Source: Methanoculleus bourgensis MS2 (GTDB lineage Archaea > Halobacteriota > Methanomicrobia > Methanomicrobiales > Methanoculleaceae). From it: DNA of 64,000 nucleotides. The notes beneath the pieces are model-generated. The model did no database searches and was not told where the DNA came from. It was given only the letters and a program-made list of their open reading frames with translations. The DNA lies in NCBI RefSeq assembly GCF_000304355.2, contig NC_018227.2:2108001-2172000 (forward strand), written 5' to 3'. The position numbers and the translations under genes were made by a program. Of this stretch, positions 8,034 to 57,861 are shown in pieces (within the stretch, counting starts at the first letter, position 1; each line of letters begins with the position of its first letter).

Positions 8034-8310
8034 TGGACTATTTCAGCTAACATTTCCCATGAAAAACCGCCCCGATTTGGCGACTGGGAGGCTCTTCAGG
8101 TCCGGCTTGTGCGGGGAGGGGGCGAGCCCCCTCCCCTGCCCCCTCCCCCAGGGTGATTCCCACCACGGTCCACAGCATGGGGTGAGAGCCTGGGGAATGA
8201 GGTGTTTTCCTGCGTACAGCCGCTCGCTCTGCCCCATGAACGCTCCACACCCCTTCGCGATCTTCCGCGTGATCCATGCCAGAACCCGCAAAATAAGATG
8301 AAATGCTCCA
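8034..8310. repeat. Dispersed GC-rich hairpin repeat, copy 3 (both ends clear)
   Basis: The left end tggactatttcagct starts at 8034 and the right end aagatgaaatgctcca finishes at 8310, followed by cta. It holds the hairpin ggggagggggcgagccccct (about 8115), the box ccaccacggtccac (about 8160) and gcgtacagccgctcgctctg (about 8213). At 277 bp this is the best-defined copy. Directly upstream, about 7975-8033, is the right end of another copy (ccggcgatcac... aagatgaaatagcccagtag), so two ends abut to form a palindrome. Confidence 0.75.
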
Positions 8311-15283: not shown

Positions 15284-18200
15284 ATGTGTCCTGCCGTCCT
15301 GTACCGCCGTCTTCCGGGCGAAGGCCTGGATGAGGTCATTGCGGGGTTCCGGGAAGCCGCCGCCTGGGACCCTGGGGGAACTGTTCTCATTGTCCCGACG
15401 TCGCGCCTCGCCGACGATATCGCTCATCGCCTCATCGCTGAAGGCACGCCCATCTTCGGCGACGCGGTCACCACACTTGCCGGGTTCGCCCGGAGGGTCT
15501 TTGAGGATCACGCAAAGACCGAGAGCCTCATTACCGGGGCGCAGTCCCGGCTCATCATCGCCGATATCCTCGCCACCCGGGCCGCCGACCTCCCGCTCCT
15601 CGTCAGGGGGGACCGGCCGGGGTCCGGGGTCGTCAATGAGCTGGCGACGCTCGTTGAGGTCCTCACCACGCGGAAGGTGGATTATCCGGCGGCGCTCGGC
15701 GACCTCCAGGGCGCAAAGAGCGCTGAGATCGGGCTTGTCCTCGATGCGTACCTCCGGTTCCTGGACGAGCACGACCTCGTCGATGAAAGCACCCTCCTTG
15801 CCCGGGCCGCCCGGTGGCTCGCCGGGGGCGGCCGGGACCGCACCGGCCCGGTCTTCATCTACGGGCTCTACGAGCCGGTGCCGCTCGAGCGGGACCTCAT
15901 CCTCGCCATCCGGGAGCGGGCTCCCGAGTTCCATTACGTGGTCCCGTGGGCCGACAACCCCGCGGTCTTCATCGACGACGGGGCATGGGTCCGCCCGGAC
16001 GTGGTCGACGGCTCTGCGGCAAAGAGCCGGATCGCCGGCCTCTTCTCCGGCCGTGCAACCTGGGACTGCGGAGGGGACATCTGCATCACCGCCCGAAAGG
16101 ACCGGCTCGATGAGGTCAGGGCGGTTGCGCAGGAGGTCCGGGACCTCATCGCCGGCGGCGTCCCGCCCGGTGATATCGCGGTTGCCTTCCCCGACCTTCC
16201 GGCGGCGATGGCGTACGTGGAGGAGGTCTTCCCCGACTTCGGGATACCGTATGCCTCCTCGCGGGGGACGGCGCTCATCGGGTCCCCGCTTGCCAGGGCG
16301 CTCCTCGCCGTCATCGCCGTCCCGGTCCACGGATACCGCCGTGAGGACGTCGTCGCCCTCCTCAACTCCCCCTACATCGGGGAGCAGTTCCCTCGGGGAG
16401 CGGTCGTCGACGTCCTCTCCCGGGAGGCCCGGATCACCGGGGGCGCCGACGCCTGGGACGAACGGCTCGCACTCCTCGCCGGGAGCATTGAAGCGGAGAT
16501 CGCGATGCCCGGCACCCCGGAGGGGGTCCGGCGCCGCCACGAAGCGATGCTCGCCGCGATCGCAGGGGTGCGGGAGGGGCTCAAGGATCTCTTTTCCGAT
16601 CTTTTGACCCTTGGGGGCGCAAAGACGATCGCGGGGCACCTTGCCGCGTACCGGTCGCTCCTTGCCCGGTGGGGCTGCCCGGTGATGCCGGAAGGGGGCG
16701 ATCCGGTCCTCTTTGAGCGGGAGTCCCGCGACCGGGCGGCATTCTTCCGGGTCCTCGATACACTGGAGGCAACGGCCCTGATACTCCCGGAGAGGGAGGT
16801 GGGGCCTGCTGAGTTCCTCTCGGTGCTCTCGCTCCTTGTCGCCGGGACGGGCTCCGGGAGTCGCCACAGAAGGCACGCGGTCCAGGTCATCGGCATCAGG
16901 GAGACGGCGCACCTCACCATCCCGCACCTCTTCATCGCCGGCCTCGTCGAGGGGGCGATGCCACGCCTGACGACCCGGCTCCCGTTTGCCACCGACCTTG
17001 AGACCCGGCGGCTCGGGACGCGGTCGCGGGCCGATATCCTCCGGGAAGAGCGCTACTACTTCACCGCGGCGCTCCTCGCCGCCCGGGACCGGGTCTGCCT
17101 CAGTTTCCCGGCAGCCGACAGCGGGGCCCCGGCGATACGCTCCTCCTTCATCGATGCGGTCAGGGATGCCGCAGCCCCGGGCACCTGGGGCGCGGAGTCG
17201 TTCAGCGCGTCACGCCTCGCGGCGGCGGCAGAGGCCGGGGCGCTGATCGCCCGGGCCAGGTTCGATGAGGCGGCCGCCATCCTCCCGCCGTCCGCTGTCC
17301 GTGAAGCGGCCCACAGGCTCAACATCGAGAATTACCACCGCCGGGGTCCCTGCGACTCCCCGTACGACGGCGTGCTCTGCGACGACCCGGAGGCCGTGGC
17401 GGCGCTCACCCGGAGGTTCGGGGATGATGCCGTCTACTCGCCGACCGCGCTTGAGACCTACGCGGACTGCCCCTTCAGGTTCTACCTCGGCGACGTCCTC
17501 TCGCTTGAACCGCTCGCCTCCCCCGACCCCGACCTGACCGCCCGGGAGCGGGGGAGCCTCGTCCACCGGATAGCGCACCGGTTCTACGCCGGCTGGAGGC
17601 GGGACGGGCACGGACCGCTCACCGACGAGAACCACCCCGAAGCCCTCCGGCGGATCCTTGCCATCGGGAGGGAGGAGGCGGAGCAGGTCAGCCTCAGGAG
17701 CCCGGCGTGGGCGGTCGAGAAGGAGTTCCTGCTCGGGTCCCCGCTTGCCGGTCGGGGGCTGCTTGAGCGGTTCATCGAGAACGAGTTGAGGCTTGCGGCA
17801 TCGCCCCTCTCCCCCCGGGCGTTCGAGTTCTCGTTCGGGCTCCCGGTTGGGGAGGGGGCAGCCGACGCAGTTCCGATACGGCTCGGCGAAGGACCGGAGG
17901 AGACGATCCTGCTCCGGGGCAGGATCGACCGGATCGACGTCGCTCCCGACGGGGCGTTCATGATCACCGACTACAAGACCGGCAGTTCGCACCCGAACCT
18001 TGCGGACGTCATGGCGGGAAAAGCCCTCCAGCTCCCGCTCTACATCAGGGCGGTCGAGACCCTCACCGGGCTCTCGGGGGCGGCCGGCGCCTACTACACC
18101 GTCCGGCGGGGCGAGGTCCGGGCCCGGCCGGTCTTCTGGGATACGGGCCGGAAAGACCACTTTGCGGTCTATCCCGGGACCCGGAACAGCGGCGTCGAGG

Positions 18201-18391
18201 ACGTCCGGGCGCTGGTCGACGCCTCCCTCGCCCGGGTAAGAGACTACCTGCACGGTATACGGAACGGCCGGTTCCCCCCGCGGCAGGACGCCGGCCCCTG
18301 CCCGGGGTACTGTGGTTTTGCGACGGTCTGCAGGTTCGACGGCTTGCGGGAGTTCTCATCCTGCGGGGAGGGGTCAGATGGGGCTCACTGA
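15284..18391 (+). CDS. AddB-like helicase-nuclease subunit with iron-sulfur nuclease domain
   Basis: 1035 residues resembling AddB/RexB, partner of AddA in double-strand break processing. The N-terminus has helicase-like stretches (TVLIVPTSRLADDIAHRL) without a classical Walker A. The C-terminus carries a RecB-type nuclease: CPFRFYL, GSLVHRIAHRFY, the catalytic MITDYKTG, and Cys729 with Cys1006, Cys1010 and Cys1016 (CPGYCGFATVC), spaced like the 4Fe-4S cluster that staples the AddB nuclease fold. Start ATG at 15284 has an aggagag site about 8 bases upstream. It overlaps the downstream addA-like gene by 14 bp, so the two form an operon. AddAB is a bacterial system, so ancient transfer is likely. 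Confidence 0.85.
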   Translation: MCPAVLYRRLPGEGLDEVIAGFREAAAWDPGGTVLIVPTSRLADDIAHRLIAEGTPIFGDAVTTLAGFARRVFEDHAKTESLITGAQSRLIIADILATRAADLPLLVRGDRPGSGVVNELATLVEVLTTRKVDYPAALGDLQGAKSAEIGLVLDAYLRFLDEHDLVDESTLLARAARWLAGGGRDRTGPVFIYGLYEPVPLERDLILAIRERAPEFHYVVPWADNPAVFIDDGAWVRPDVVDGSAAKSRIAGLFSGRATWDCGGDICITARKDRLDEVRAVAQEVRDLIAGGVPPGDIAVAFPDLPAAMAYVEEVFPDFGIPYASSRGTALIGSPLARALLAVIAVPVHGYRREDVVALLNSPYIGEQFPRGAVVDVLSREARITGGADAWDERLALLAGSIEAEIAMPGTPEGVRRRHEAMLAAIAGVREGLKDLFSDLLTLGGAKTIAGHLAAYRSLLARWGCPVMPEGGDPVLFERESRDRAAFFRVLDTLEATALILPEREVGPAEFLSVLSLLVAGTGSGSRHRRHAVQVIGIRETAHLTIPHLFIAGLVEGAMPRLTTRLPFATDLETRRLGTRSRADILREERYYFTAALLAARDRVCLSFPAADSGAPAIRSSFIDAVRDAAAPGTWGAESFSASRLAAAAEAGALIARARFDEAAAILPPSAVREAAHRLNIENYHRRGPCDSPYDGVLCDDPEAVAALTRRFGDDAVYSPTALETYADCPFRFYLGDVLSLEPLASPDPDLTARERGSLVHRIAHRFYAGWRRDGHGPLTDENHPEALRRILAIGREEAEQVSLRSPAWAVEKEFLLGSPLAGRGLLERFIENELRLAASPLSPRAFEFSFGLPVGEGAADAVPIRLGEGPEETILLRGRIDRIDVAPDGAFMITDYKTGSSHPNLADVMAGKALQLPLYIRAVETLTGLSGAAGAYYTVRRGEVRARPVFWDTGRKDHFAVYPGTRNSGVEDVRALVDASLARVRDYLHGIRNGRFPPRQDAGPCPGYCGFATVCRFDGLREFSSCGEGSDGAH

Positions 18392-21300
18392 CCGGCAGAG
18401 GCGGGCCGCCCTCGACCACGGGACGAGCAAGTGCGTGACCGCCGGTGCGGGGACCGGGAAGACGCACGTCCTCGTCAGGAAGTACGTCGACCTGATCGAG
18501 TCCGGGGAGGGAGGCGGCGTCGCGGGTATCCTTGCCCTGACGTTCACCGAGAAGGCGGCACAGCAGATGCGTGAACGGGTCAGGGACGCGCTTGCAGAGA
18601 AGAGCGGCCCTGAGTGGGACGCCGTCCGCGACGACCTGCTCTCGGCGAACATCTCGACGTTTCACGCCTTCTGCGCCCGGGTGCTCAGGGAGTTCCCGCT
18701 TGAAGCGGGCGTCGAGCCGGGGTTCTCGGTCCTCGATGAGCGGGAGGCTCGACGGCTCCGGGAAGAGGCGATGGACGATCTCATCCACGGCGAACCCCCC
18801 GAGGCCTGCCGTGACGCCCTGGTCTGCACCCTCCGGGCGATCGGCGCCTACGAACTGAAGAACTACCTCATCCGGCTCTACGAGAAACGTGCGGCCGCAG
18901 AGGAGTTCTTTGCCGCGCTCGAGCAGGACGAGGGGGCGGTGATTGCCGCGTGGCAGGAGATCCTCAGGCAGCGCAAGGAGGAGGTCGTGCAGGACTTCCT
19001 GTCGGCCGCACGCCCGAGCATCGCAGTGCTCGCCGATTGTGCGGCCCGCTACCCGGGGGATGCCGACCCGGCGATGGCCTACCTCCGGGCCATCGAGCCG
19101 TACCTCCCGTCGCTTGCGCCTGAGCGACCGGGCGACGAGGCCTGCCGCGCCGTTGCCGCGGTCGCGGCGATCAACGACGACCGCCGGTTCACGGCCAGGA
19201 TGGGCAGGAAGGGGAACTGGGACGAGCGGGACCTTGATGCGGTCCGGGAGGCCTACCGGACCCTGCATGACCTCACCAAACCCCGCGCCGGAACCTTCGG
19301 GCTCTCCATCGACCCTGACGATGCCTTCACGCGGGCGACGCTCGACTTCCTCCACAGTCTGGGGACGGTCTTCTCGGTCTTCGCGGAGGCTGTGGACGCC
19401 GCAAAAGCGAGGCGGGGGGCGCTTGACTTCTCGGACCTTATCCTCTTTACCCGCCGCCTCTTCCGCGACCGCGACGATATTGTTGAGACGCATTTCCGGA
19501 GCAGGTTTGCGTTCGTCCTGGTCGACGAGTTCCAGGATACCGATCCGGCCCAGGCCGCCATCATCGCCGCGATCCTCGGGGGGCTTGCGGCTGAGCGGGG
19601 AAAACTCTTCGTCGTCGGCGACCCGAAGCAGTCCATCTACCTCTTCCGGGACGCTGACGTAACCCAGTTCAAACGGACGCGGGACGTCATCGAGGAGAGG
19701 CTCGGCGGTGAGGAGGTCAGGCTGGACGTCAACTTCCGGAGCACGCCCGAGGTCGTGGGGTTCGTCAACTACATCTTCGCCGCCCTGATGGCCGGGAGCG
19801 CCCGGCCCTGGGAGTTTGCCTACGAGCCGCTGCGGGCGAGCAGGACGAGCGATGCCGGATCGGTCGAGATCCTCCTCTGCCCGAAGACAGAACCCAGGGA
19901 TGCCGGCCGCCGGGCGTCGGCAGAGGCGGTCGCCCGGAAGGTCCAGCGGATGGTTGAGGCCGGGGAGAAGCCGATCGTTCGGGACGGCGACCGCCGCCCG
20001 GCCGGGTACGGCGATATCGCGATCCTCCTTGAGCGCCGGACAAACCTCATCTACTACGAGTGGGCGCTCCGGCGCTACGGCATCCCCTACCACGTCTATG
20101 CCGGGCTCGGGTTCTACCGGCGGCAGGAGGTCTACGACCTCTACAATATCCTCCGAATCCTCGAGAACGAACGTGACGATGTGGCGCTCTACGGCGCCCT
20201 GCGGTCGCCCTACTTCGGGATCTCCGATGCCCGGCTCTTTGCCGTCGCAGATTCCGGCCCCCGCTCAGCCGCGCTCCTGGAGCGGTTGCGGCGGTTTGCC
20301 GCCGGGGCGCCGGAATCCGACGTCGCGGCGGCGGCAGCCCTCCTTGCATCCTGGAAGGGGGTCGCCCGCAGGCTCAGGCCGGCCGAACTCCTCAACCGGA
20401 TTGTCACCGAGTCAAGCGTCTACGCGGTCTACGGCGGGATGCCCGAAGGTGAGCAGATCATCGCGAACGTCGAGAAACTCATCGGTATCGTCCGGGACCT
20501 CCAGGAGGGCGGGAGCAGCCTCGGTGAGGTTGTGGGGGAACTCGAACTCTGTATCGACGGTGAAGAGCGGGAGGGGGAGGCACAGCCCGACCTTGCGTCG
20601 TCAGAGGCTGTCGCAGTCATGACGGTCCACGCATCCAAGGGGCTTGAGTTCCCGGTCGTCGTCGTCCCCGACCTCTCGGAGCTGCCGCTCCCTGATACCT
20701 CCACGATCATCGTCGAGGAGGGGCTGCGCCTCGGTGTCAGGATCGCAAACCCCGAAAACGACCACGAGCGTGAGAATACGCCCATTCTCGCGGTCCTCAA
20801 GGAAGAAGCGCGGGAGAAGGACGAGGCTGAGCGAAAGCGGCTCTTCTACGTGGCGCTGACCCGGGCACGGGACCACCTGATCCTCTGCGGCGTTCTGCCT
20901 GACGGGGTGCCGGAGAGTGTTGCGGCGTGCAGGACCAGGACCGACTGGCTCGCCTGCTGCCTCGGCCTCTGCGAGGATGTCTACGCGGCGGGCGGGGTTG
21001 AGGTCCTCCCGCCGGGAGAGGATCGGCCGCTCCGGATCGGGGTCTGCACCGCGCCTGACGCGATACCGGCTGAGGTCAGGACGGCCGCACCCGTCCTCCT
21101 CACCGTCCCTGAGGATATCAGTCCGGCATCAGAGCGCCCCCTGCCCCCCGCGGCGCTCCCGGCGGAGGAGCACGTCTACTCGGTCAGCGAGATCGAGGGT
21201 TTCCTCCGCGGGCAGGGGGGGAGTGGATCATTGCATCTAATACTTCCATGCGATGGTTACGTCACGCGAAGACGCGAAGAGCGCGAAGGGGACGATACCA

Positions 21301-21899
21301 CCCGGCAACCGAACTTCGCGTCCTCCCGCATGCTTCCGCGTGCGGCCGGCGATCCGCACCAGGACCCGCACGATAAGGTGAAATGCTCCAGTAGGGACGG
21401 CGATGCACGGATCCGGGGCCTGATCATCCACGAGGTCTTCCGGGGGCGCGACCCGGCGGCGGTGCTGCGGCGCTACGGGATCGACGACGCCGGGCTGGCC
21501 CGGGAGTACGCCCGGCTCTACGAGGAGTTCCGGAGGTCGCCGATGGTGCAGGGCGCCAGGAGCGATTACTGCGAGGTGCCGTTCCGGGCAAGGGTCGGCG
21601 GGGTGGTCTTTACCGGGTTCATCGACAGGCTCCTGCAGCGGCCGGATGGCACCTGGATCCTCGTCGACTACAAGACGGGCCGGGTGGACGAGGGGAACCT
21701 CCCGGCGAAGATTCAGGAGCATGCCCTCCAGATGGCGGTCTACCGCCGGGCAGCGGAGGGGATCCTGGGCGAGCCGGTCCGGGCATACCTCTACTTCACC
21801 GATACCGGCCGCTTTGTCGAGGCGCCGGCTGATGACGACGGGGTCGTTGATGCGCTCCGGGAGGCGGTCAGCGGGATCGAGGGTCGCCCGGCGGGGTGA
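18378..21899 (+). CDS. AddA-like UvrD/RecB helicase-nuclease carrying an in-frame repeat
   Basis: 1173 residues of a superfamily 1A helicase with a C-terminal RecB nuclease. Motifs: GAGTGKTH (Walker A), LTFTEKAAQQM (Ia), DEFQDTDPAQ (II), VGDPKQSIYLFR (III), LDVNFRSTPEV (IV), VMTVHASKGLEFPVVVV (V), and LTRARDHLIL (VI). The nuclease part has RGLIIHEVFRG, GFIDRLL and LVDYKTG (about residue 1096). ATG at 18378 follows a ggggagggg site; the in-frame start at 18312 lies deep inside addB. Residues 949-1005 are encoded by a dispersed repeat inserted between YSVSEIEGFLRG and DARIRGLIIHE. The frame stays open, but part of the linker region before the nuclease domain appears replaced. Whether the protein is active is unknown. 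Confidence 0.85.
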   Translation: MGLTDRQRRAALDHGTSKCVTAGAGTGKTHVLVRKYVDLIESGEGGGVAGILALTFTEKAAQQMRERVRDALAEKSGPEWDAVRDDLLSANISTFHAFCARVLREFPLEAGVEPGFSVLDEREARRLREEAMDDLIHGEPPEACRDALVCTLRAIGAYELKNYLIRLYEKRAAAEEFFAALEQDEGAVIAAWQEILRQRKEEVVQDFLSAARPSIAVLADCAARYPGDADPAMAYLRAIEPYLPSLAPERPGDEACRAVAAVAAINDDRRFTARMGRKGNWDERDLDAVREAYRTLHDLTKPRAGTFGLSIDPDDAFTRATLDFLHSLGTVFSVFAEAVDAAKARRGALDFSDLILFTRRLFRDRDDIVETHFRSRFAFVLVDEFQDTDPAQAAIIAAILGGLAAERGKLFVVGDPKQSIYLFRDADVTQFKRTRDVIEERLGGEEVRLDVNFRSTPEVVGFVNYIFAALMAGSARPWEFAYEPLRASRTSDAGSVEILLCPKTEPRDAGRRASAEAVARKVQRMVEAGEKPIVRDGDRRPAGYGDIAILLERRTNLIYYEWALRRYGIPYHVYAGLGFYRRQEVYDLYNILRILENERDDVALYGALRSPYFGISDARLFAVADSGPRSAALLERLRRFAAGAPESDVAAAAALLASWKGVARRLRPAELLNRIVTESSVYAVYGGMPEGEQIIANVEKLIGIVRDLQEGGSSLGEVVGELELCIDGEEREGEAQPDLASSEAVAVMTVHASKGLEFPVVVVPDLSELPLPDTSTIIVEEGLRLGVRIANPENDHERENTPILAVLKEEAREKDEAERKRLFYVALTRARDHLILCGVLPDGVPESVAACRTRTDWLACCLGLCEDVYAAGGVEVLPPGEDRPLRIGVCTAPDAIPAEVRTAAPVLLTVPEDISPASERPLPPAALPAEEHVYSVSEIEGFLRGQGGSGSLHLILPCDGYVTRRREEREGDDTTRQPNFASSRMLPRAAGDPHQDPHDKVKCSSRDGDARIRGLIIHEVFRGRDPAAVLRRYGIDDAGLAREYARLYEEFRRSPMVQGARSDYCEVPFRARVGGVVFTGFIDRLLQRPDGTWILVDYKTGRVDEGNLPAKIQEHALQMAVYRRAAEGILGEPVRAYLYFTDTGRFVEAPADDDGVVDALREAVSGIEGRPAG
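21224..21390. repeat. Dispersed repeat copy inserted in the addA reading frame
   Basis: The left end tggatcattgcatctaa (21224) and the right end aaggtgaaatgctcca (to 21390) are imperfect inverted repeats and match the ends of copies 2 and 3. Between them lie tcacgcgaagacgcgaag and a later inverted partner cttcgcgtcctcccgc, then the ggccggcgatc and ccaggacccgcacga blocks typical of right ends. The G/C core and the ccaccacggtccac box are missing, so this is a short 167-bp form. It has no stop codon in the addA frame. Confidence 0.75.
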
Positions 21900-37135: not shown

Positions 37136-37174
37136 ATAGGTGAAAGGATATTCACATCTTTCCCGGAGAATACT

Positions 37175-38257
37175 ATGCAGATACCCATCGCTCACCCTTC
37201 CCTCGGGAACGAGGAGAATACTGCTGTTCTCGCTGTTCTTGCCTCGGGCATGATCGCCCAGGGCCCGGAGACTGCTGCGTTTGAGGAAGAGTTCGCCGCC
37301 TACTGTGGTGTTCCCCACGCCGTCGCCACAAATAACGGGACCGCCGCCCTCCACGCGGCGTTGCTGGCCGCCGGGGTCGGGCCGGGCGACGAGGTGGTCG
37401 TCCCGGCGTTCACGTTCTTTGCGACGGCTTCAAGCGTCTCGATGTGCGGTGCCCGCCCGGTCTTTGCCGACGTCGATCCGGCGACCGCCACGATCGACCC
37501 GGCCGATATCCTCGCGAAGGTCAGCCCAACGACGAAGGCCGTGATCGCCGTCCACCTCTACGGCCAGCCCTGCGACGTCGGGGCGGTCCGGGAGGTCTGC
37601 GACGATAAGGATCTCGTCTTCATCGAGGACGCCGCCCAGGCTCACGGAGCCACCTACCGCGGGCAGAAGACCGGCAGCCTCGGCGACCTCGCCTGCTTCT
37701 CCTTCTACGCGACGAAGAACATGGCGACCGGGGAGGGGGGGATGGTGACGACGGGCTCGGATGAGTATGATGAGCGTCTTCGCCGGGTCATCAACCACGG
37801 CCAGAGCGAGAAGTACCTCCACACCGAGCTCGGCTACAACTACCGCATGACCGACATCAACGCCGCGATCGGCCGGGTGCAGCTTGCAAAACTCGACGGC
37901 TTCAACCGCCGCCGGCAGGAGAACGCCGCCTATTATAATACTCACATCACGGCGCCGGGGCTCGTGCTGCCGGCGGTCGCCCCCGGCCGGACCCATGTCT
38001 GGCACCAGTACTCCCTGCGGGTCACCGACGCCTTCCCCCTCTCTCGGGATGAGCTGATGGCCTACCTCCGCGAGCGCGGGATCGGCTGCGCTGTCCACTA
38101 TCCCGTAGCCCTCTCCCGGCAGCCCTTCTACGCCGGGGCTGCCTCCTGCCCGGTCGCCGAGTCGCTCGCGGCTTCGGTCCTCTCGATCCCGGTCCACCCC
38201 GGCGTCATCGACGAAGCCCGGGCCTACATCGCTGATACTATCAACGGGGTGGTCTAG
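37175..38257 (+). CDS. DegT/DnrJ/EryC1 sugar aminotransferase, copy 1
   Basis: 360 residues of the PLP-dependent sugar aminotransferase family. PLP Lys181 lies in FSFYATKNMATGEGG; other conserved parts are NGTAALHAALLA, PAFTFFATA, FIEDAAQAHGA and GYNYRMTDINAAIG. It should transfer an amino group from glutamate to a 3- or 4-keto nucleotide sugar. With the adjacent oxidoreductase it matches the WbpB/WbpE step that makes 3-amino-UDP-sugar uronic acids. About nine in ten residues match the copy at 55.9 kb. The oxidoreductase ATG follows the stop directly. After that gene the pathway breaks off here, unlike at the second locus. Confidence 0.92.
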   Translation: MQIPIAHPSLGNEENTAVLAVLASGMIAQGPETAAFEEEFAAYCGVPHAVATNNGTAALHAALLAAGVGPGDEVVVPAFTFFATASSVSMCGARPVFADVDPATATIDPADILAKVSPTTKAVIAVHLYGQPCDVGAVREVCDDKDLVFIEDAAQAHGATYRGQKTGSLGDLACFSFYATKNMATGEGGMVTTGSDEYDERLRRVINHGQSEKYLHTELGYNYRMTDINAAIGRVQLAKLDGFNRRRQENAAYYNTHITAPGLVLPAVAPGRTHVWHQYSLRVTDAFPLSRDELMAYLRERGIGCAVHYPVALSRQPFYAGAASCPVAESLAASVLSIPVHPGVIDEARAYIADTINGVV

Positions 38258-39172
38258 ATGGACGCAGGGGTCATCGGCGCCGGGACGGTTGGCAGGAACC
38301 ATGTCCGGGTCTACTCCGAGCTGAAAGAGGTCGGGACGACCTACGTCTACGACCTGAACACGACTGCCGCCGAAGAGGTCGCCGCGGCCACCGGGGCCGA
38401 GGTCTGCCGCTCGGCAGACGAACTCCTCCGGAAGGCCGAGTGCGTCTCGGTCTGTGTGCCGGCACACCACCACCTCCAGGCGGCGGGACCGGCGTTCGCC
38501 GCCGGGGTGCCTGCCCTCATCGAGAAACCCCTCTGCCTCACCACGCCTGAGTGCGAGCGCCTTCTTGAGCAGATCCCGGAAGGGCTGACCGTCGGTGTCG
38601 GCCAAATAGAGCGGTTCAACCCGATCGTCACCGAGATCGCGGGGATCGTGAAAGACCCCCTCTATGTCTCCTTCCACCGCCACAACCCGGCCCCGGCAGA
38701 GGTGGGCGGGAGTTCGGTCGTCGAGGACCTGATGATCCACGACATCGATATCGCATTCAACGTCTTCTTCCCCGGGCGGGAGTATACCGTCCACGCGAGC
38801 GGCACCGGGGACGTCGCCGCGGCCATCGCGACCTTCGGGCGGACGCCGGTCTACCTCTCGGCGTCCCGGAAGGCCTCAAAGAAGGTCCGGTCGGTCTACA
38901 TCGAGGAGGAGGACCGGACGATCGAGGGCAATTTCATGACCCAGGAGGTCTTTGTCTACAGGAAGCCCGAGGCCTACGGGCAGGCAGGGGGCCTCTACCG
39001 CCAGGAGAACGTCATCGAGAGCCTCCTCGTGAACAAGGTCGAGCCCCTGGCGATCGAACTTGCGACGTTCGTCCGGGCGGCCCGTGACGGAAAACCCTTC
39101 CCGGTGACCCCGGAGCAGGGACTCGGAAATGTCCGGGTCTGCGAGGCGATCTATCAGAGTCTCTCGGCATGA
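38258..39172 (+). CDS. Gfo/Idh/MocA oxidoreductase, copy 1 (WbpB-like)
   Basis: 304 residues with an N-terminal NAD-binding motif (GVIGAGTVGRNHVRVY), the family signature EKPLCLT, and a C-terminal substrate domain with VVEDLMIHDIDIAFN holding the catalytic His/Asp region. It should oxidise or reduce a nucleotide sugar at C3, feeding the aminotransferase encoded just before it. It is nearly identical to the copy at 56.9 kb. Bases 39173-39577 after it show no supported gene; short frames there look like eroded sequence. Confidence 0.9.
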   Translation: MDAGVIGAGTVGRNHVRVYSELKEVGTTYVYDLNTTAAEEVAAATGAEVCRSADELLRKAECVSVCVPAHHHLQAAGPAFAAGVPALIEKPLCLTTPECERLLEQIPEGLTVGVGQIERFNPIVTEIAGIVKDPLYVSFHRHNPAPAEVGGSSVVEDLMIHDIDIAFNVFFPGREYTVHASGTGDVAAAIATFGRTPVYLSASRKASKKVRSVYIEEEDRTIEGNFMTQEVFVYRKPEAYGQAGGLYRQENVIESLLVNKVEPLAIELATFVRAARDGKPFPVTPEQGLGNVRVCEAIYQSLSA

Positions 39173-55820: not shown

Positions 55821-55864
55821 TAAGCGAAAGAAACATGACATCTGCTTCCGGAGTTGGAAATTCC

Positions 55865-56947
55865 ATGCACATCCCTATCGCCCAACCTTCCCTCGGAAAC
55901 GAGGAGAACGATGCTGTTCTCGCCGTCCTCGCCTCGGGCATGATCGCCCAGGGCCCGGAGACCGCCGCCTTTGAGGAAGAGTTCGCCGCCTACTGCGGCG
56001 TCCCCCACGCCGTTGCCGTCTCGAACGGGACCACCGCCCTCCACGCGGCGCTGCTCGCCGCCGGGGTCGGGCCGGGCGACGAGGTGGTCGTCCCGGCGTT
56101 CACGTTCTTTGCGACGGCGTCCGCGGTCTCGATGTCTGGGGCGGTGCCCGTCTTTGCCGACGTCGATCCGGCGACCGCCACAATCGACCCGGCTGATATC
56201 CTCGCAAAGGTTAGCCCAAAGACAAAGGCCGTGATCGCCGTCCACCTCTACGGCCAGCCCTGCGACGCCGCGGCGGTCAACAAGATCTGCGATGCTCGGG
56301 ACCTCGTCTTCATCGAGGACGCCGCCCAGGCCCACGGCGCGGAGTATCACGGGACACGGACGGGGGCGCTCGGCGACCTCGCCTGCTTCTCCTTCTACGC
56401 GACGAAGAACATGGCGACCGGGGAAGGGGGGATGGTGACGACGGGCTCGGATGAGTATGACGCCCGCCTCCGCCGGGTCATCAACCACGGCCAGAGCGAG
56501 AAGTACCTCCATACGGAGCTCGGCTACAACTACCGCATGACCGACATCAACGCCGCGATCGGGAGGGTGCAGCTCGCGAAACTCGACGGCTTCAACCGCC
56601 GCCGGCAGGAGAACGCTGCCTATTATAATGCTCACATCACGGCGCCGGGGCTCGTGCTCCCCTCGGTCGCGCCCGGCCGGACCCATGTCTGGCACCAGTA
56701 CTCCCTGCGGCTCACCGACGCGTTCCCCCTCTCCCGGGACGAGCTGATGGCCCACCTCCGCGAGCGCGGGATCGGCTGCGCCGTCCATTACCCGGTCGCC
56801 CTCTCCCGGCAGCCCTTCTACGCCGGGGCTGCCTCCTGCCCGGTCGCCGAGTCGCTCGCGGCCTCGGTCCTCTCGATCCCGGTCCACCCAGGGGTTACCG
56901 ATGAGGCGCGGGCTTACATCGCCGACGCCATCAACGGGGTGGTCTAA
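55865..56947 (+). CDS. DegT/DnrJ/EryC1 sugar aminotransferase, copy 2 (WbpE-like)
   Basis: 360 residues, same motifs as copy 1 (FSFYATKNMATGEGG with PLP Lys181 and GYNYRMTDINAAIG). Differences from copy 1 by eye are about 29 positions, clustered in residues 50-165. ATG at 55865 aligns with copy 1; the in-frame ATG at 55835 adds ten residues not present there. It overlaps the next gene by one base (TAATG). With the three genes downstream it forms the more complete of the two sugar operons. Confidence 0.93.
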   Translation: MHIPIAQPSLGNEENDAVLAVLASGMIAQGPETAAFEEEFAAYCGVPHAVAVSNGTTALHAALLAAGVGPGDEVVVPAFTFFATASAVSMSGAVPVFADVDPATATIDPADILAKVSPKTKAVIAVHLYGQPCDAAAVNKICDARDLVFIEDAAQAHGAEYHGTRTGALGDLACFSFYATKNMATGEGGMVTTGSDEYDARLRRVINHGQSEKYLHTELGYNYRMTDINAAIGRVQLAKLDGFNRRRQENAAYYNAHITAPGLVLPSVAPGRTHVWHQYSLRLTDAFPLSRDELMAHLRERGIGCAVHYPVALSRQPFYAGAASCPVAESLAASVLSIPVHPGVTDEARAYIADAINGVV

Positions 56948-57861
56948 TGGACGCGGGCGTCATCGGCACCGGGACGATGGGCAAAAACCACGTCCGGGTC
57001 TACTCGGAGCTCAAGGAGGTCGGGGCGACCTACGTCTACGACCTGAACACGAAGGCCGCCGAAGAGGTCGCCGCCGCCACCGGGGCCGAGGTCTGCCGCT
57101 CGATGGAGGAACTCCTCGCGAAAGCCGGGTGCGTCTCGGTCGTGGTCCCGACCCCCTACCACCTCCGGACAGCGGGGGAGGTCATCGCCGCCGGGGTGCA
57201 CGCCCTGATCGAGAAGCCCCTCTGCCTCACCGTGCGCGAGTGCGAGCAGCTGATCGGGCAGATCCCGGAGGGGCTGACCGTCGGTGTCGGGCAGATCGAG
57301 CGGTTCAACCCGGTCGTCGCCGAAGTCGCAAGGATTGTAGAGGATCCCCTCTACGTCTCCTTCCACCGGCACAACCCGGCCTCGGCACGGGTGACCGGGA
57401 GTTCCGTCGTCGAGGACCTGATGATCCACGACATCGACATCGCGTTCAACGTCCTCTTCCCCGAGCGGGAGTGTACCCTCCACGCCAGCGGGACCGGGGA
57501 CGTCGCCGCGGCCCTTATGTCCTTCGGGCGGACACCGGTCTACCTCTCGGCCTCCCGCAAGGCCTCGAAGAAGGTCCGGTCAATCTACATCGAGGAGGAG
57601 GACCGGACGATCGAGGGCGACTTCATGACCCAGGAGGTCTATGTCTACAGGAAGCCCGAAGCCTACGGGCAGGAGAACGGGCTCTACCGCCAGGAGAACA
57701 TCATCGAGAAACTCCTGGTGAACAAGGTCGAGCCCTTGAAGATCGAACTCGCGACGTTTGTCCGGGCCGCCCGCGACGGGAAACCCTTCCCGGTGACGCC
57801 GGAGCAGGGGCTCGGAAACGTCCGGATCTGCGAGGCGATCTACCGGGGCCTCTCGGCATGA
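56947..57861 (+). CDS. Gfo/Idh/MocA oxidoreductase, copy 2 (WbpB-like)
   Basis: 304 residues, with GVIGTGTMGKNHVRVY as NAD site, EKPLCLTV, and VVEDLMIHDIDIAFN. Closely matches copy 1. It should act with the aminotransferase to convert a UDP-GlcNAc uronate to the 3-amino form. Overlaps both neighbours (TAATG before, ATGA after), so all three genes are translationally coupled. Confidence 0.92.
   Translation: MDAGVIGTGTMGKNHVRVYSELKEVGATYVYDLNTKAAEEVAAATGAEVCRSMEELLAKAGCVSVVVPTPYHLRTAGEVIAAGVHALIEKPLCLTVRECEQLIGQIPEGLTVGVGQIERFNPVVAEVARIVEDPLYVSFHRHNPASARVTGSSVVEDLMIHDIDIAFNVLFPERECTLHASGTGDVAAALMSFGRTPVYLSASRKASKKVRSIYIEEEDRTIEGDFMTQEVYVYRKPEAYGQENGLYRQENIIEKLLVNKVEPLKIELATFVRAARDGKPFPVTPEQGLGNVRICEAIYRGLSA

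Follow-up and report, generated by a model that had tools for sequence, protein, structure and literature searches.

MITEs that contribute in-frame coding sequence are established in Rickettsia, enterobacteria and Yersinia (PMC10969869, PMC2229807), and in-frame coding repeats have also been reported for Methanocaldococcus jannaschii in a 2005 study cited in PMC2229807. Rickettsia palindromic elements (RPE; Ogata et al.), as related in PMC10969869 and PMC2229807, are palindromic repeats of ~105–150 bp found in frame. The MITE that we describe in the addA gene of Methanoculleus bourgensis MS2 resembles the RPE, going by those accounts, in being inserted in frame in a protein gene and adding a peptide to its product, an analogy of behaviour only. 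The hosts are unrelated, frequent in-frame insertion is not evident here, where one in-frame case stands against two gene-breaking ones, and the present family has a clear 4-bp target duplication whereas the same accounts list that of the RPE as uncertain. By their description in PMC2229807, the Methanocaldococcus repeats are alike in that they too come from a methanogenic archaeon and are fused into protein genes; YPAL/RU-2 of Yersinia differ in being bacterial, with target duplications of 3–26 bp and internal inverted repeats (PMC2229807). Since in-frame coding MITEs are already known in other microbes, the addA case is a fresh example rather than a new phenomenon. It is an archaeal example with clear boundaries, in which a mobile element has contributed a peptide to the interior of a conserved enzyme. 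The uninterrupted site of the relatives, the duplicated target and the way the frame is balanced can all be seen together, and two gene-breaking sister insertions in the same genome offer a natural contrast.

The window, the whole stretch of DNA analysed, spans 64,000 nucleotides (NC_018227.2, positions 2,108,001 to 2,172,000), and the features of the addA region are collected in Table 1. The reading frame of addA is open throughout positions 18312–21899; GTG at 18312 is the first codon of the open frame, and ATG 18378, overlapping the addB stop at 18389–18391, is the likely start. Many congeneric addA matches contain an apparent TGA, most likely situated ahead of the true start. Pfam assigns UvrD-helicase, UvrD_C and PDDEXK_1 domains to the protein, which amounts to UvrD-type helicase domains with a PD-(D/E)XK nuclease behind them; its best sequence match in the PDB is AddA 3u44, and the best structure matches of its AlphaFold model are 4cej/4ceh (AddAB). 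The AddB-like nuclease that adjoins and overlaps it (ORF 15284–18391) has a PDDEXK_1 domain of its own. Domain order and partner gene are like those of AddAB in PDB 3u44/4ceh/4cej, from which this AddA differs in carrying a 57-residue mobile-element insert in the nuclease domain.

Table 1. The addA gene, its partner and the inserted element, in window positions.
Feature	Position	Strand	Remarks
addB-like partner with PD-(D/E)XK nuclease	15284..18391	+	1035 aa; stop overlaps addA start
addA	18378..21899	+	UvrD-type helicase and PD-(D/E)XK nuclease, 1173 aa including insert
Left copy of 4-bp target duplication, GGAG	21220..21223	+	From flank alignment to G021 and family rule
Complete short-form MITE, 167 nt, TGGATCATTGCATCTAATA ... 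GATAAGGTGAAATGCTCCA	21224..21390	+	Encodes most of residues 949–1005
Right copy of 4-bp target duplication, GTAG	21391..21394	+	One base unlike left copy
Nuclease domain continuation of AddA	21395..21899	+	GLIIHE, FIDRLL and DYKTG motifs intact

AddA orthologues were gathered by a protein search of 61 genomes, and the junction was inspected in 30 genes of other species, one of which is frameshifted exactly at that point. The inserted segment is absent from all of them (30/30); at this position, which holds ~60 residues here, the orthologues show short linkers that vary in length and sequence. The nearest full-length orthologues, those of genomes G021 (86% amino acid identity) and G023 (79%), are uninterrupted, as is that of G034. 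Across the junction G021 reads GQEEVEDDAR and G023 GQEVVDDDAR, and this AddA reads GQGG, 57 residues more, then DGDAR; the net length difference of addA to either gene is exactly 57 codons. The repeat insertion announced by the initial annotation, which had proposed comparing addA in close relatives, is therefore borne out by uninterrupted versions throughout the genus. AddA orthologues of strains lacking the repeat family were also searched for the same residues, which were not found.

The element itself runs TGGATC...GCTCCA, with imperfect inverted ends. Its nearest copies, C1:786191–786347 and C1:2337527–2337692, match it at 97% and 91% of aligned columns; the closer one also has a 10-nt deletion, and the addA copy bears substitutions of its own relative to its nearest relatives. 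These sister copies and the end-pattern counts given below confirm, far beyond chance, a repeat with both inverted ends at exactly the position first annotated. When the two flanks are aligned separately to the uninterrupted G021 gene, they overlap by exactly 4 columns, GGAG and GTAG. The insertion adds 171 nt, or 57 codons, because a 4-bp target duplication is added to the 167-nt element, which supplies the duplication or small deletion that had been expected to balance the frame; the stop-free frame noticed earlier is real, and the count of about 56 extra residues becomes 57. Since these flanks differ at one base, the duplication in the addA copy rests on the flank alignment and the family rule. 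GTAG is found on that side in the nearest sister copies too; for the addA copy taken by itself, an element of 171 nt that caused no duplication would account equally well for the length.

A search of a plasmid collection returned no match. A structured RNA was considered and rejected, given that Rfam yielded no credible match, merely sub-threshold miRNA-like hairpins, and that the folding z-score is modest (−2.06). At window positions 21262–21291, the inner CACGCGAAGACGCGAAG has exact or near matches (26–27 nt) in many congeners and in G044, which belongs to another family, suggesting that this core is older or wider spread than the ends.

The element belongs to a family of MITEs, short and with inverted ends, dispersed in multiple copies without a transposase gene inside, that is strongly expanded in this Methanoculleus genome to well over a hundred repeats. 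The ends are imperfect TGGANCATTNCANCTNAT inverted repeats; allowing one mismatch at most, we counted 102 forward and 110 reverse occurrences of the end pattern in this genome, none with the reversed control, and 0–5 in each of 34 congeners. We paired 137 complete elements in 531 kb of sequence, a sample and not a full census, since we took only stretches with a match to the repeat or to its ends. Their lengths fall mainly between 150 and 179 bp (87/137) or between 220 and 330 bp (37/137). The longer form has the same ends, for instance at window positions 8034–8310, where a second repeat, whose core is CCACCACGGTCCAC and which has 13 listed copies in the window, is nested within it. The 4-bp flanks are identical in 85 of the 137 complete elements, against a mean of 44.7 and a maximum of 61 in shuffles, and duplication lengths of 2, 3, 5 and 6 occur in 0–1 of the 137 each; the family thus has a target-site duplication of fixed length, 4 bp. 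Identical flanks are mostly CTAG, with CTAC/GTAG, ATAG and GGAG also represented, the last beside two further copies (C1:1793171 and C1:1202902). In 34 cases the gap between neighbouring elements is exactly 4 bp, which insertion of the element into its own target site would produce, and loci L099, L080, L088 and L114 hold runs of 2–4 elements with exactly 4 bp between them. We also looked for an autonomous element: the DDE_Tnp_1 transposase loci of the genome are without the family ends (TGGANCATT), and in the stretches examined, the DNA enclosed by end pairs lying far apart held no recognisable transposase. Our search of the literature on Methanoculleus MITEs gave nothing relevant, and the family was met in no paper found.

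We consider it very probable, at roughly 87%, that a MITE inserted into addA, duplicated 4 bp and left a tolerated loop of 57 residues. A non-autonomous inverted-repeat MITE family has multiplied in this Methanoculleus-like genome, and a transposase presumably acting in trans put one copy into the start of the AddA nuclease domain, in the sole stop-free frame of six, the 4-bp duplication bringing the addition to 171 nt. The resulting AddA, with a probably disordered loop of 57 residues between the first nuclease helix and the GxxxHE helix, is in all likelihood still produced and functional. On sequence evidence, the event is most likely a recent, tolerated selfish insertion, its recent date being suggested by the 97% identity to the nearest copy.

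The AlphaFold model of the insert-bearing AddA (mean pLDDT 75.5, pTM 0.55) leaves residues 947–1008 unstructured, with pLDDT of about 24–38, between helix 936–946 and helix 1007–1020, and gives mostly 83–92 for the nuclease blocks after the insert. The insert is accordingly predicted to form a disordered loop between the first helix of the nuclease domain and the GxxxHE helix; the rest of the nuclease, fold and motifs alike, seems undamaged in the model. Because the PDDEXK_1 match in a more typical relative (L055) begins before the insertion point, we place the insert within the beginning of the nuclease domain. Structure prediction, which had been suggested as a check, and this domain match move the insert from between the helicase and nuclease parts, where it had been placed, to the N-terminal part of the nuclease domain.

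The same insertion may instead have damaged the nuclease, reducing AddA to a helicase subunit whose nuclease activity is weak or absent, or setting its gene on the path to a pseudogene. This alternative, which we regard as unlikely, draws on the location of the insert within the nuclease domain near the GxxxHE helix, on two other copies in the genome that do break genes and on the nuclease domain that AddB has of its own; with an insertion recent enough to be 97% identical to its nearest copy, decay would not show yet. However, there is neither stop nor frameshift downstream of the insert, the catalytic-motif columns past it are invariant in 28 orthologues, this AddA included, and relatives have linkers of differing length and sequence at this site. 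Nor are amino acid changes in excess. Against G021, dN/dS is 0.22 in the helicase and 0.48 in the nuclease part, compared with 0.25 and 0.37 for the G021–G023 pair, and lineage-specific synonymous/non-synonymous changes in the nuclease part amount to 8.5/9.5 for this genome (G000) versus 13.5/17.5 for G021, which indicates, at the sequence level, no acceleration on this AddA lineage; selection after the insertion is not measurable because the insertion looks recent. Between a tolerated and a damaged linker, a choice that the initial annotation had left open, the open frame, the motifs, the lack of excess changes and the predicted disordered loop favour the tolerated one.

Tolerated insertion requires no special mechanism. 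Only one of the six frames of the addA element is open, and it is the frame used, so that an insertion of this element would keep a gene open about one time in six, depending on orientation and phase. When we looked across the family for selection on open frames, the majority of copies showed stops in most of their frames, and a few lengths made up the bulk of each length class. The addA copy is the only complete element in the sample within a long, recognisable ORF open on both sides. By contrast, the copy at C1:1081185–1081355 (L137:1504–1674; 171 bp, CTAG/CTAG) disrupts a gene for a protein with SLFN_AlbA_2 and HATPase_c_4 domains: it introduces a frameshift of 175 nt and a premature stop, and beyond the copy the remaining coding sequence runs out of frame. 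Another, at C1:1095309–1095475 (L261:2004–2170; 167 bp, CTAC/CTAC), has a frame-keeping length but carries a TGA in its right end; the gene that it breaks is presumably, from the look of its sequence, a flavodoxin-like oxidoreductase.

Going beyond tolerance, the loop might have acquired a function, such as that of a charged loop altering DNA binding by AddAB or the control of its nuclease. We give this little credence; if true, an archaeal repair enzyme would have a functional part derived from a mobile element. Misplacement of the repeat into addA during assembly, conceivable for so highly repeated a family, appears still less probable in view of the unique substitutions of the addA copy relative to its nearest relatives, a flank overlap that fits the 4-bp rule of the family and a genome in one contig at 99.95% completeness. 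That the segment is an old part of AddA since lost in relatives is scarcely credible, as it is a complete family member with family ends and flanks and is missing from all orthologues examined, the nearest three included, an absence for which we also rejected it as a conserved part of AddA.

Elsewhere in the window, two adjacent gene pairs at 37169–39172 and 55835–57861 are ~84–86% identical over the 300-base stretches compared, an apparent local duplication as judged from this similarity.
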